From: Vibrio cidicii
GTDB taxonomy: Bacteria; Pseudomonadota; Gammaproteobacteria; Enterobacterales; Vibrionaceae
Assembly (NCBI RefSeq): GCF_009763805.1
Contig: NZ_CP046804.1
Location: 1,612,001 to 1,676,000 of the forward strand
Direction of reading: 5' to 3'
Length of the DNA: 64,000 nt
Part shown: in pieces, positions 1,924 through 59,043 of the stretch
How positions within the stretch are numbered: the first letter of the stretch is position 1
Layout: the number at the start of each line of letters is the position of its first letter
The notes under the pieces: generated by a model
What the model was told of the DNA's origin: nothing
The model's input: only the letters and a program-made list of their open reading frames with translations
The model's database searches: none
Program-made: the position numbers and the translations under genes

Positions 1924-2503
1924 TTACTTACCAAGCGCTTCTTTGTAGTGCTGACGACAAACCGACACATAGCGATCATTGCCACCAATAGCGACCTGAT
2001 CCCCTTCTGCAATGGCATTACCATGCTCATCGGTACGAATGACCATGTTGGCTTTACGGCCACAGTGACAAATGGTTTTTAGCTCGACTAATTTATCGGC
2101 CCAAGAAAGCAGATACTTGCTACCTTCAAACAACTCACCGAGAAAATCCGTGCGCAGGCCATAACACAGCACTGGGATACCAAGCTTATCGACTACTTCA
2201 GTCAACTGATAGACCTGTTTCTTTCGACAAAAACTGGCTTTCATCCACCAGTACACAGTGCCGTTTTTCTGCTTGGTCTAATCTGGCAATCTCATGATAA
2301 AGATCGCTTTCGCCAGTGAACAAATGCGCTTCTGCTTGCAAACCGATGCGAGAGCTCACCTTGCCGACACCATAACGATCGTCCAAGGCGGCGGTAAAAA
2401 TAACCGGCGTCATGCCCCGCTCTTGATAGTTAAATGCCGATTGAAGAAGCGTTGTTGATTTACCCGCATTCATTGCTGAGTAGTAAAAATACATCTGAGC
2501 CAC
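1924..2503 (-). pseudogene. tdk: thymidine kinase, split by a one-base insertion
   Basis: Thymidine kinase phosphorylates thymidine to dTMP in the salvage pathway. The N-terminal part (2503 down to about 2222) starts MAQMYFYYSAMNAGKST with the P-loop and runs to VLVDESQFLSK (Walker B). The reading then slips and continues in another frame with QVYQLTEVV, VLCYGLRTDF, the zinc-ribbon cysteines (CHCGRK) and YVSVCRQHYKEAL. Deleting one base from the GTTTC at 2217-2221 (GAAAC on the coding strand) gives SKEQVYQL, aligning column for column with E. coli Tdk, and a normal 192-residue protein. The lesion is of the same type as eleven others in this window, so a read error is more likely than real decay. 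Confidence 0.92.
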
Positions 2504-2540
2504 AGATTGCTACCTAAATGAAAAAGTGAAAGATTCAAAG

Positions 2541-2567
2541 AAAAGGGCTGAATAATCAGCCCTTTTT
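2541..2567 (-). terminator. rho-independent terminator of cysS
   Basis: AAAAGGGCTG / CAGCCCTTTTT inverted repeat with a six-base loop just after the cysS stop. A and T runs on both sides allow function in either direction. Confidence 0.8.
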
Positions 2568-2579
2568 AAAAAGATATAA

Positions 2580-3962
2580 TTATTTGCGACGCCAGCTCGT
2601 CCCTTCCGGACCATCTTCCAGAACAATGCCCATCTCGTTGAGTCTATCGCGGGCCAAATCAGCGTTAGCCCAATCTTTCGCTGCGCGCGAGTCATTACGC
2701 AGCTTGATCAGTGCTTCGATTTCAGCCACTTCATCGTCATTACCGGCATCGCCTTTGAGAAACGCTTCTGGATCTTGATGCAAAATACCAATCACATCCG
2801 CCAGTTCACGCATCAGCGCACCAAGCGCGCTCGCTTTCTCAAGGCTTTCGGTTTTTAAGCGGTTAACTTCGCGAGCCATATCAAACAGCACTGAATACGC
2901 TTCTGGGGTATTGAAATCGTCGTTCATTGCGGTGGTAAAGCGCGTTACATACTCTTCACCACCGGCTGGCGCGGCGCTGAGATCCAAACCACGAAGGGCA
3001 GTGTACAAGCGCTCAAGCGATGCACGTGCTTGGTTTAAGTTCTCTTCGCTGTAGTTTAGCTGGCTGCGGTAATGACCTGACATTAAGAAATAGCGTACCG
3101 TTTCTGCATCGTAGTGAGACAGCACGTCGCGAATGGTGAAGAAGTTACCGAGTGATTTCGACATTTTCTCTTTGTCGACCATCACCATGCCGCTGTGCAT
3201 CCAAGTGTTAACGTACTTGGTGTCATGCGCGCAACAAGATTGCGCGATTTCGTTTTCGTGGTGCGGGAATTGCAAGTCCGAGCCACCACCGTGAATATCA
3301 AAATGATTGCCAAGAATTGACGAGTTCATCGCAGAACATTCGATGTGCCAACCCGGACGACCTGGGCCCCATGGCGATTCCCACGTTGGTTCACCCGGTT
3401 TAGACATTTTCCACAGAACAAAATCCAGTGGGCAGCGTTTGGCCGTTTCCACATCAACTCGCGCACCCGCTTGCAGCTGATCCAGATCTTGCTTCGACAG
3501 CTTGCCATATTCGTCAAATTTATTGACTTCAAACATCACGTCGCCATTGTCGGCCACATAGGCAAAACCGCGCTCAATCAACTTCTCGACCAGCTCAATA
3601 ATCTCTTGGATGTATTGAGTGGCACGCGGCTCGACATCCGGACGCTTCATATTCAAGGCATCGAAATCGGCGTGCATTTCGCCAATCAGACGCTCGGTCA
3701 GTGAGTCACACGATTCACCGTTTTCGGCTGCACGTTTGATGATCTTGTCGTCGATATCCGTGATGTTACGCACAAATGTCAGGTCATAGCCTAAGTAGCG
3801 AAGGTAACGAGAAACCACATCAAACGACACAAACGTGCGGCCATGCCCGATGTGACAAAGATCATAGATGGTCACCCCACAGACATACATGCCAACTTTA
3901 CCGGCCGTAATTGGTTTGAATTCCTCTTTCTGTCTGGTGAGTGTGTTATATATCTTCAACAT
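2580..3962 (-). CDS. cysS: cysteinyl-tRNA synthetase
   Basis: Charges tRNA-Cys with cysteine; class I synthetase, cytosolic monomer. The 460-residue length is normal. The HIGH signature is at residues 37-40 (CHIGHGRT), and KMSKS occurs near residue 267 (KEKMSKSLGNFF). The zinc-binding cysteine in MYVCGVTIYD and the GWHIECSAM segment are present. The frame is uninterrupted, and the C-terminus has the expected anticodon-binding region ending GTSWRRK. It lies divergent to ppiB, with about 200 bases between the two starts, the usual arrangement in Vibrio and many enterobacteria. Confidence 0.97.
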   Translation of the reverse strand: MLKIYNTLTRQKEEFKPITAGKVGMYVCGVTIYDLCHIGHGRTFVSFDVVSRYLRYLGYDLTFVRNITDIDDKIIKRAAENGESCDSLTERLIGEMHADFDALNMKRPDVEPRATQYIQEIIELVEKLIERGFAYVADNGDVMFEVNKFDEYGKLSKQDLDQLQAGARVDVETAKRCPLDFVLWKMSKPGEPTWESPWGPGRPGWHIECSAMNSSILGNHFDIHGGGSDLQFPHHENEIAQSCCAHDTKYVNTWMHSGMVMVDKEKMSKSLGNFFTIRDVLSHYDAETVRYFLMSGHYRSQLNYSEENLNQARASLERLYTALRGLDLSAAPAGGEEYVTRFTTAMNDDFNTPEAYSVLFDMAREVNRLKTESLEKASALGALMRELADVIGILHQDPEAFLKGDAGNDDEVAEIEALIKLRNDSRAAKDWANADLARDRLNEMGIVLEDGPEGTSWRRK

Positions 3963-4162
3963 GATCTCTATCTAAGCTTGTGAATGAATTACAGGAGGGC
4001 GAGTATATCAACTCAATCTCTAATAGGTAATAGCAATTAACCGATAAAACGATAAACGGCTAAACTTCAGACACAAAAACTCGAATTGTTCGTACTGCGT
4101 TTGCATGCGACTGAACTTAGGCTAGAATTCTCATTTTGACAAAAACAGTAAAGGAACAGCGC

Positions 4163-57106: not shown

Positions 57107-57132
57107 AATCCGCTTACAGGTTTCCAATCAAC

Positions 57133-57156
57133 AAGGTCGCCATTGGCGGCCTTTTT
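57133..57156 (+). terminator. rho-independent terminator
   Basis: GGTCGCC / GGCGGCC stem with an ATT loop followed by TTTTT, 28 bases after the coiled-coil gene. Confidence 0.85.
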
Positions 57157-57175
57157 ACTTTGTTAGAACAGAACT

Positions 57176-57322
57176 ATGATCAGTCTCGATGCCTATCAGG
57201 AGCTACTCGCGCCTATCCACGCTTTTTTGCACTGTGAAACACCGGATGAATGGGTTGAGCAAGCCAAAAAGCCAGAAAATCTAGCCACTATTTTGATCGA
57301 TCACTTACTGTGTGAGCTATAG
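57176..57322 (+). pseudogene. miaE: 5' fragment of miaE (tRNA-(ms2io6A)-hydroxylase), cut by insertion
   Basis: ATG at 57176 opens 48 codons (MISLDAYQELLAPIHAFLHC ... LIDHLLCEL) ending in TAG at 57320-57322. This is the N-terminus of MiaE, the di-iron enzyme that hydroxylates ms2i6A37 of tRNAs; Salmonella MiaE reads similarly (LLAPI.AFL.C, then LLTDHLICELKAAQTA). The conserved CEL is followed immediately by foreign A+T-rich DNA and the recombinase gene, so the element is inserted after codon 48. The remaining about 200 codons should lie at the far end of the element, outside the window. Confidence 0.82.
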
Positions 57323-57377
57323 GCGTAGGTGTGCAGTTTGGGTATAATTATCTCAAAGTAACTAAGGAAGCTGAGAG

Positions 57378-59043
57378 ATGACTGAGGAAAAACAACGATT
57401 TGCAGTTACATATCAAAGATTTAGTAGTGTTAGACAGGTCGGTAACAGTTCTTTAGATCGACAAACAGACACACAAAAAGCTTGGTTAAGACAAAATCCT
57501 AACGTAACTGTGATTGATAATTTTGTGGACAAGGCAATGTCGGGTTGGAGCGGCAAGCATCTAAAAGAGGGTTCGCTTGGTCAGCTCATGAAAGCGATTG
57601 AAGACGGCATTATTCAGCCCGGCACTCTAATTCTGGTTGAACACTTTTCGCGTCTCACAAGACAAAACATCGACAATGCAGAAGAGCTTGTAAAGCGTAT
57701 ATGGAAAGCTGGTATTACTCTCGTAACAGTTTCGAGACAATACAGAGTATCCACCAGAGGCAGTAAATAACATGTCTCTTCGAATCAGATTGATCGTTGA
57801 AATGGAACAAGCTTTTAAAGAATCAGAATGGCGTTCCGCAAAGGTAAAAGCAAGTTACATTCGTAGAGAGAAGTTAGCGAAAGAAGAAGGTAAAGCACCA
57901 AGGATTCGAAAGCCTTTTTGGTTAAATCCAGATGGCACACTCAATCACTTACACCAAGCTGTAAAAGATATGTTCAACTGGTATTTAGAAGGTTTGGGGC
58001 AACAACGTATAGTTGTTAGATTGAGAGAAAAATATACAGATACAGCGATTCAAAAAATCAATCCATCTACTGTAATGCGCTGGATTCAATCTGAAATCGT
58101 CAGAGGATATTGGAGAGGAAACAGAGTTTATGAACCTGCTGTTGATGATCAATTATTTTTCGATGTTCAAGCAATTCATAAGTCAAGATTATACAAAAAT
58201 GTAAAACCTGATCGTCAATGGCCACTTTCAGGACTTATGCAATGTGGTGTTTGTGGCAGAGGAATGTCGATACAAAAATCAGGAAAATCAAATCCTGTTG
58301 TTCGTTGCAGCTCTAAGCAAAGAGATCACTCTTGCAATAGAAAAACTACATTCCCCTACTTTATCGTTCACATGTACATGATGACACACGTTTTACAACA
58401 TGCGATTCGCCTACACTCAGATAAATCATCAAACAAAGGCTTGCAAATCGAGTTAGGTAAAGTCGAGCGCAAATTAGCTACAACTCGAAAAAAACTTAAT
58501 GACGAAAAAGAGTTTTACAACAAAGCATCGAACGAAGGGCAAAATACAACCATGATTTTGCAACTTATGAATGAGACTTATCAAAAAATTGAAGAGTTAG
58601 AAGAACAAGAAAAAAGTTTAAAAGCTTCATTGAAACAGAGTAATCGTGCAGTTTCAGCAGAGTCTCGTGATTTACTTTTTACGCCAGAAACTTTTAATCT
58701 CGAAATGCATAAATTGGGATTTAAAATCGTGGTTGGGGAAGAGGTACTTAGCACTATAGGTTTTGATAAACCTGTTTCTAAAATGGTGTATTTAGGTTAT
58801 TGCAGAAAAGAAAGAGCTTATAAATATGCTGATGCTTCAAGCGATTTTGTGAAAGTATGGCCTTCATCATTAGTAACTGATGAGCTGCTAAATATGCAAA
58901 TGTTGAAAAATTATATCAATAGTTCGAGCGGTCTTAAATACATTTGGGATCACATATATGACGACGATCTTGAAGAAAAATTGAAAAAACGTTCAAACGA
59001 GAAAAAGGAAAAAGAAAAGAAATTAAAAGAAAAGGGTGAATAA
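57378..59043 (+). pseudogene. large serine recombinase (integrase of the element), +1 frameshift
   Basis: N-terminal resolvase domain with the catalytic serine in YQRFSSVRQVGNSSLDRQ and LVEHFSRLTRQN (frame 57378-57770). It is followed one base out of frame by the recombinase domain (IRRPF-like RIRKPFWLNPDG, YLEGLGQQRIV), a zinc ribbon (CGVCGRGMSIQK, CSSKQRDHSC) and a coiled coil (about residues 350-430). Removing one T from GTTTC at 57729-57733 gives TLVTVRDNTEYPPEAVNNMS and a 554-residue protein. The ATG at 57772 that seems to start a second gene is therefore internal. It presumably integrated the element into miaE. Confidence 0.9.

Follow-up and report, generated by a model that had tools for sequence, protein, structure and literature searches.

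One-base insertions at GAAC/GTTC in a Vibrio cidicii assembly as a probable footprint of Dnd phosphorothioation

Methylated motifs such as Dcm sites are described as a source of consensus errors in PMC6591954 and PMC12392509, and nanopore reads of dnd-positive Salmonella have been reported to carry error signatures at GAAC/GTTC that were 25-fold fewer without dndC (PMC9069010). Phosphorothioate (PT) sites of the Salmonella system, mapped by EcoWI-seq, a combination of enzyme cutting and Illumina sequencing, are described as having M (A/C) before and K (T/G) after this sequence in CG-rich surroundings, with C at -2 and G at +2 (PMC9521924). Here we analyse a stretch of 64,000 nucleotides from the published assembly of Vibrio cidicii (the window; C2:1612001-1676000, contig NZ_CP046804.1), in which genes appear frameshifted by one extra base at GAAAC/GTTTC, and relate it to the dnd/dpt system encoded in the same genome of 4.75 Mb, which is assembled in two contigs, C1 and C2. 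That these extra bases are an artefact is near certain, and on the evidence of the sequence we consider it very likely that they are consensus basecalling errors at phosphorothioated GAAC/GTTC sites, probably of nanopore origin, and absent from the DNA of the cell.

One-base insertions at GTTTC/GAAAC

Our main comparison genome, G098, is a collinear close relative whose purB is 97% identical to that of V. cidicii and which is 94-96% identical inside the window; the pieces aligned to it, taken from a 400 kb stretch surrounding the window, total 260,396 bases at 92-97% identity. In the following, the word is the five-base GTTTC/GAAAC where relatives read the four-base GTTC/GAAC, and its sister words are the other eight members of [ACG]TTT[ACG]. 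Relative to G098, V. cidicii carries 104 one-base insertions and 58 deletions in the aligned bases; the word accounts for 43 of the former and for none of the latter. Among insertions in [ACG]TTT[ACG] words, 43 fell on GTTTC and 2 on the eight sister words combined (binomial p = 3e-43, the baseline being the 8.8% share of GTTC among such sites in G098), split 22 to 21 between the strands.

A protein comparison, in which every frame piece was matched separately, gave the same picture. With frameshifts classed as +1-type (+1 or, by frame, -2) and -1-type (-1 or +2), the word stood at 38 of the 41 +1-type and at neither of the two -1-type events in the 400 kb surrounding the window. The first-pass annotation had recorded no frameshift with another cause, a statement that calls for softening, as three +1-type and two -1-type events lack the word. 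A wider set of 2,133 reference proteins, applied to all V. cidicii stretches, placed the word at 40 of 43 +1-type (34/37, 1/1, 2/2 and 3/3) and at 0 of 2 -1-type frameshifts. Listed by local five-base context, as that annotation had proposed, the frameshifts of about 0.6 Mb (about 270 kb of coding sequence compared) are enriched for the word. The second contig, C1, gave 0 bases aligned to G098 at the chosen place, and the evidence for it comes from one protein comparison and from a frame-break scan, which requires no relative and counts breaks at word sites against those at sister-word sites: on C1, 11 of 225 word sites were broken vs 23 of 1,915 sister sites (p = 4e-4), and in the window alone 5 of 171 vs 20 of 1,505 others. 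Extrapolation to the whole genome gives about 780 affected word sites. Errors on one word, at a subset of its sites, are what is expected of a modification-induced consensus error; no bipartite, Type I-like motif was seen within +-20 bases of the misread sites.

Within the window, all twelve GAAAC/GTTTC words that the first-pass annotation had picked out as frame breaks were found at their places (Table 1). At each of the ten sites that it covers, G098 lacks one base of the word. Over the roughly 47 kb of the window that align, V. cidicii has no further GTTTC insertion relative to G098, and the annotation's list is therefore complete there. The remaining two sites, 11764 and 57729, fall where the compared G098 stretch does not align. 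At 11764, where six relatives were aligned, three read the four-base word as the sole gap in about 800 bases, G040 is likewise one base shorter amid other gaps, and G120 and G008 leave the place unresolved. At 57729 both of the two relatives aligned lack one base: in G036 the gap lies beside the word with GTTC in register, and G035 has no GTTC reading and is only 68% identical. A second close relative, G567, which spans 20 kb of the window and is absent from the list of DndC matches, lacks the extra base of V. cidicii at five of five words. Since G098 and G567 show no difference from each other at such words over those 20 kb, the change sits on the V. cidicii side.

Table 1. Frame breaks at GAAAC/GTTTC in the window and the reading of relatives
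Word	Window position	Affected gene	Comparison
GTTTC	2217..2221	thymidine kinase; family match	G098 copy intact
GTTTC	4587..4591	peptidylprolyl isomerase B-like; family match under curated cut-off	G098 copy intact
GAAAC	11764..11768		outside G098 alignment; G030, G091 and G048 one base shorter
GTTTC	20517..20521	hisB; family match	G098 copy intact
GAAAC	22757..22761	hisD; family match	G098 copy intact
GTTTC	34226..34230	cyclopropane-fatty-acid synthase-like; family match under curated cut-off	G098 copy intact
GTTTC	37336..37340	flavin oxidoreductase-like; family matches weak	G098 and G567 copies intact
GAAAC	43659..43663	candidate bioB (name from the first-pass annotation only)	G098 and G567 copies intact
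GTTTC	46950..46954	rarA-like AAA ATPase; family match under curated cut-offs	G098 and G567 copies intact
GAAAC	49187..49191	ftsK; 1053 bits vs curated cut-off of 1566	G098 and G567 copies intact
GTTTC	54117..54121	445-amino-acid protein without NCBIfam match	G098 and G567 copies intact
GTTTC	57729..57733	recombinase gene	past G098 alignment; beside the word, G036 and G035 have one base fewer

The aligned window holds 24 one-base differences from G098, ten at the word and 14 elsewhere, the latter unassigned as to direction and gene position. Eight of the 14 lie in A/T runs of at least 4 (window positions 2521, 20837, 26638, 27272, 27294, 32471, 53789 and 54986; not polarised), so that the annotation's remark that longer A/T runs are untouched is only roughly true. 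The G098 homologue of the window lies on its 1.2 Mb contig and another part of V. cidicii C2 maps to its 3.2 Mb contig, a split that may reflect either a rearrangement or a contig break. From window position 57317 to the end at 64000, and on to about C2:1750890, there is no counterpart in the compared G098 stretch; positions separated by about 82 kb in V. cidicii are separated by about 8 kb in G098, so that a large island carrying recombinase genes starts at 57317.

In a naming scan that covered 30 of the 37 proteins broken at the word, G098 counterparts gave the names dTMP kinase, LapB, FtsK (under the curated cut-off), CydC and CydD, as well as glucose-6-phosphate dehydrogenase, phosphate acetyltransferase and HisB/HisD. 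E. coli cannot live without dTMP kinase or LapB, and their presence among the broken genes means that the word breaks are hardly real mutations. A living strain with these genes broken, along with hundreds more, would hardly be expected.

The dnd/dpt locus and the flanks of misread sites

The first-pass annotation had suggested a search for dnd genes, and the V. cidicii genome indeed encodes DndB, DndC, DndD and DndE together with DptF, DptG and DptH at C2:653704-669728. On one strand follow dptF, dptG and dptH (C2:653704-661683; NCBIfam models above cut-off), a PT-DNA-binding HNH endonuclease, one further gene and a DGQHR gene; the opposite strand carries dndE, dndD, dndC and dndB in one operon (C2:664616-669728). 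NCBIfam matches above cut-off were obtained for DndB, the C-terminal piece of DndC, DndE and the PT-DNA HNH endonuclease, the N-terminal piece of DndC scoring below, and PADLOC concurs for the Dnd proteins scanned. The putative DndD is assigned by its place and length, other Vibrio loci having similar genes at the corresponding position. In the assembly dndC, too, is broken: it runs over two overlapping frames that are joined at CAGAAACG, again a GTTTC/GAAAC word; in the ten other loci of the same dnd kind both parts lie in one frame.

Across the genus, DndE (PF08870) was found in 22 of 148 genomes, V. cidicii included, and DndC exceeded its cut-off in 29 of 227, where TIGR03183 found the V. 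cidicii copy; G098 is absent from both match lists. PF01507 (PAPS reductase) proved unsuitable as a DndC probe, because its two V. cidicii matches both lie outside the dnd locus and would wrongly imply that dnd is absent. At C2:663397-664560, between dndE and the restriction module, a second gene encodes a DGQHR domain and is akin to DndB and DpdB; of 15 other Vibrio loci, 4 have a match to it at 25-37% identity.

As the first-pass annotation had noted, only some GAAC/GTTC sites are affected: 36 of 1,370 aligned G098 GTTC sites (2.6%) are misread, counting sites that V. cidicii reads as GTTC or GTTTC and setting aside 328 that differ otherwise. The rate rises to 22/335 with T as the next base, and to 15/84 where, in addition, 8 or more of the 14 flanking bases are G/C. 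We pooled these sites with those of G010, a second affected Vibrio assembly described below, dropping one ambiguous V. cidicii event. T or G then follows 57 of 70 misread vs 1,121 of 2,449 correctly read sites (p = 2e-9), and A or C precedes 47 of 70 vs 1,168 of 2,449 (p = 9e-4); in both genomes the flanks of misread sites are GC-richer. With T/G after, A/C before and GC-rich surroundings, the pooled misread sites follow the main part of the flanking preference described for PT in PMC9521924.

Recurrence and absence in other assemblies

We compared 40-kb stretches (one shorter) around purB from 19 other dnd-positive and 10 dnd-negative genomes with 301 G098 proteins. In the dnd-positive G010, ten of ten +1-type frameshifts stood at the word, and in more of its sequence (about 101 kb of covered coding sequence) the count was 31 of 31, with zero of the -1-type. 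The frame-break scan found 54 of 759 word sites broken in this genome vs 86 of 5,565 sister sites (p = 3e-16), and the break in its dndD coincides with the word. No misread place is common to G010 and V. cidicii among the 71 genes compared in both.

The purB stretches of 12 other complete dnd-positive genomes contained zero frameshifts; among five dnd-positive drafts, G058 had three +1 shifts without the word and G120 one +2 shift with it. G119 was considered as a further affected genome and not counted, its single event being a -5 shift at the word in AT-rich context. In the ten dnd-negative genomes the word stood at 0 of 6 shifts, all of which (four -1, two -2) belong to G091; with six frameshifts in 40 kb, this dnd-negative assembly of 3 contigs is perhaps an ordinary error-rich one. 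Nor did the frame-break scan detect an excess at the word in the 18 other dnd-positive genomes (10/1,729 word vs 91/16,573 sister sites), the ten dnd-negative genomes (6/996 vs 51/9,457) or G098 (1/1,000 vs 46/9,478). We also covered 687,849 bases of 54 dnd-positive loci; 42 belong to named records, and some belong to genomes tested elsewhere in this analysis. Of 15 frameshifts there, the word stood at 0 of 5 +1-type and 1 of 10 -1-type. Apart from V. cidicii and G010, none of the assemblies in these comparisons has a one-base +1 break at the word. A scan for broken copies of DptH across the taxonomic order returned a match in 19 of 394 genomes, G010 not among them, and none was broken. For a gene that we take to be ydiJ, 224 of 227 genomes of the genus had a match, and among the matches listed, which do not include G010, a late start occurred only in V. 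cidicii. Neither scan yielded a third affected genome.

Among complete E. coli genomes, 204 of 5,426 have dndC. In 60 rows spread over 225 matching E. coli records, dnd/dpt genes were named in all but one, names that do not show intactness. We picked five loci for odd length and compared them with that of strain 357900 as a yardstick, viewing the SE11 locus as well. Length differed by one base at a long T run in two records, by one base at a long A run in PCN061, whose dptG is flagged as frameshifted, and by eleven bases in AR436. The fifth, NCCP 13963 (NZ_CM167683.1 727148-742001), reads GAAAC at about position 6311 of the locus where 357900 reads GAAC, in an intergenic place with T as the next base, and this is the sole length difference in the 14.85 kb dnd locus. 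As 0 of 50 features were flagged broken in a 50 kb sample from elsewhere in this genome, it stands as a single unexplained case and not as a third affected assembly. The E. coli set is curated RefSeq and may be missing bad assemblies.

Origin of the extra base and comparison with known systems

Taken together, the dnd/dpt genes, the excess on both contigs, its recurrence in G010 and the flanking preference support what the first-pass annotation had proposed, a motif-specific artefact that would stem from Dnd phosphorothioation. In the mechanism that we envisage, Dnd would act on some of the GAAC/GTTC sites, putting sulfur in place of a non-bridging backbone oxygen between the G and the A/T. 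A sequencer reading native DNA, most likely a nanopore instrument with a basecaller untrained on sulfur-modified DNA, would receive a changed signal wherever the mark is present and count three bases in the two-base A or T run. With enough marked reads, the consensus would adopt the extra base, and the gene there would appear frameshifted. We regard Dnd as the strongly supported cause of the errors; the sulfur at the misread sites, which we infer from sequence alone, the nanopore platform and a high occupancy at these sites are likewise conclusions drawn from the error pattern. Similarly, GAAC/GTTC as the probable target of this Dnd system is read indirectly, from the assembly errors that choose it.

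A consensus error at GAAC/GTTC might also have another cause, namely a base methyltransferase acting on that word, or a weakness of the basecaller or polisher on unmodified DNA. Such errors are documented for methylated motifs such as Dcm (PMC6591954, PMC12392509), and PMC9069010 lists overlap with methylated motifs among its own limitations. A weakness on unmodified DNA should, however, be independent of the organism, yet the tested assemblies besides V. cidicii and G010 are without an excess; moreover, both affected genomes hold a known maker of marks at GAAC/GTTC, and the main flanks fit the published PT preference. We therefore rate this explanation as unlikely.

Much less probable still are two explanations that dispense with a modification-induced consensus error. 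If the insertions were real, having arisen by decay or through error-prone repair after the restriction module had cut at sulfur-marked sites, they could be word-specific too, as would be expected of mutations concentrated at PT sites. Yet the cell would have to bear the extrapolated 780 or so insertions, those in the genes for dTMP kinase and LapB included, and the broken dndC of the assembly would do away with the mark; furthermore, G010 is hit at different places and shows no other frameshifts in the compared coding sequence. We consider this origin highly implausible. The same holds for ordinary homopolymer error in an old long-read or pyrosequencing assembly: some of the other one-base differences from G098 do lie in longer runs, but the affected run is only two bases long with G and C as its neighbours, no more than two events fall on all eight sister words, and G010 is free of any other kind of frameshift in its compared coding sequence.

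Several observations weigh against phosphorothioation as the source of the errors. Only 2 of 20 dnd-positive assemblies are affected vs 0 of 11 dnd-negative ones (p = 0.5), and most complete dnd-positive genomes are clean. With 18 of 20 dnd-positive genomes clean, the dnd operon alone is insufficient for the artefact; two of the 18, G066 and G104, are a thin test with three comparable genes each, and five (G099, G111, G130, G132 and G058) have a distant dnd kind, with a DndD about 25% identical to that of V. cidicii, whose target word may differ from GAAC/GTTC. PMC9521924 lists GGCC, GATC and CCA as target words of other systems. That assemblies are clean could be due to the platform, to polishing, to low occupancy or to a different target word. 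From the loci compared, E. coli supplies no clear positive case. Occupancy poses a further difficulty: for E. coli B7A, PMC6459556 reports by PT-IC-seq that 60% of sites are <5% modified, with the classes of the figure stopping at 40%, which is low for a majority consensus. The flanks, too, agree in part only. A or C before GTTC is seen in G010 and is weak in V. cidicii (p = 0.07), where G before is also enriched; the preference for C at -2 and G at +2 in the published set has no clear counterpart here, and G010 favours T at +2. PMC6459556 describes no extended motif at 360 high-frequency sites of B7A, and PMC4515589 describes the flanking effect as absent in vitro. Finally, C2:2600001-2621100 has no word excess: its 15,293 aligned bases hold 6 insertions, of which 1 is at the word, and 10 deletions, of which 3 are. 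This stretch would speak against the pattern if retained; we excluded it from the totals since many of its gaps, visibly including 2 of the 3 word deletions, lie in a badly aligning tandem intergenic repeat. The array, within C2:2600001-2621000, consists of short CTAGG-containing repeats and is arranged differently in G098.

If the extra bases are indeed consensus errors at sulfur-marked sites, probably hundreds of intact genes (by extrapolation) look broken in such a record, including dndC in V. cidicii and dndD in G010. As the falsely broken genes include modification genes, dnd annotation is affected along with pseudogene counts and completeness figures. Conversely, one over-represented frameshift word in a public assembly may serve as a read-free test for a modification system at work and for the sequence that it targets; what surrounds the misread sites is also relevant to the question why Dnd uses few of its sites. 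More tentatively, and with doubts that slightly outweigh our confidence, we suggest that the letters of an assembly may keep a base-resolution map of highly occupied PT sites. If a consensus error needs a marked majority, two Vibrio species would have some 2-4% of GAAC/GTTC sites above half occupancy, exceeding the per-site levels of E. coli B7A, and archived assemblies might be mined without reads for this and other backbone marks.

Modification-induced consensus error is a known kind of artefact. In the literature that we searched, from which subscription papers were mostly absent, nanopore detection of PT is reported, and we found no report of PT as one-base insertions in an assembled consensus; nor did we meet there a uniform PT footprint in a public assembly with the modification genes themselves falsely broken. 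The Dcm and other methylation-related consensus errors, as described in PMC6591954 and PMC12392509, resemble the present case in that a modification poorly represented in basecaller training leads to motif-linked errors. They differ in that they involve base methylation, whereas in V. cidicii a backbone modification would give a uniform +1 in a two-base run. Another close case is the nanopore detection of PT in Salmonella enterica Cerro 87 (PMC9069010), which shares the GAAC/GTTC sequence, the gene family and an error signature in native DNA. A few per cent of sites are affected in both, the reported figures being 3.9% of GTTC and 4.4% of GAAC in Cerro 87, next to the 2.6% misread in V. cidicii. 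The Cerro 87 signature is a read-level statistic against amplified DNA from a strain known to be modified, whereas that of V. cidicii consists of one-base insertions in a published consensus, found without reads. Also close are the GAAC-type Dnd/Dpt systems of E. coli and Salmonella Cerro 87 (PMC6459556, PMC9521924), with GAAC/GTTC as the word, partial use of its sites and, according to PMC9521924, a context of A/C before, T/G after and high GC. There, too, dndBCDE lies opposite dptFGH with a gene between them, as in V. cidicii: a nuclease gene in E. coli SE11 and a DGQHR gene in 357900. What sets V. cidicii apart from these systems is that its target word is known from the errors alone.

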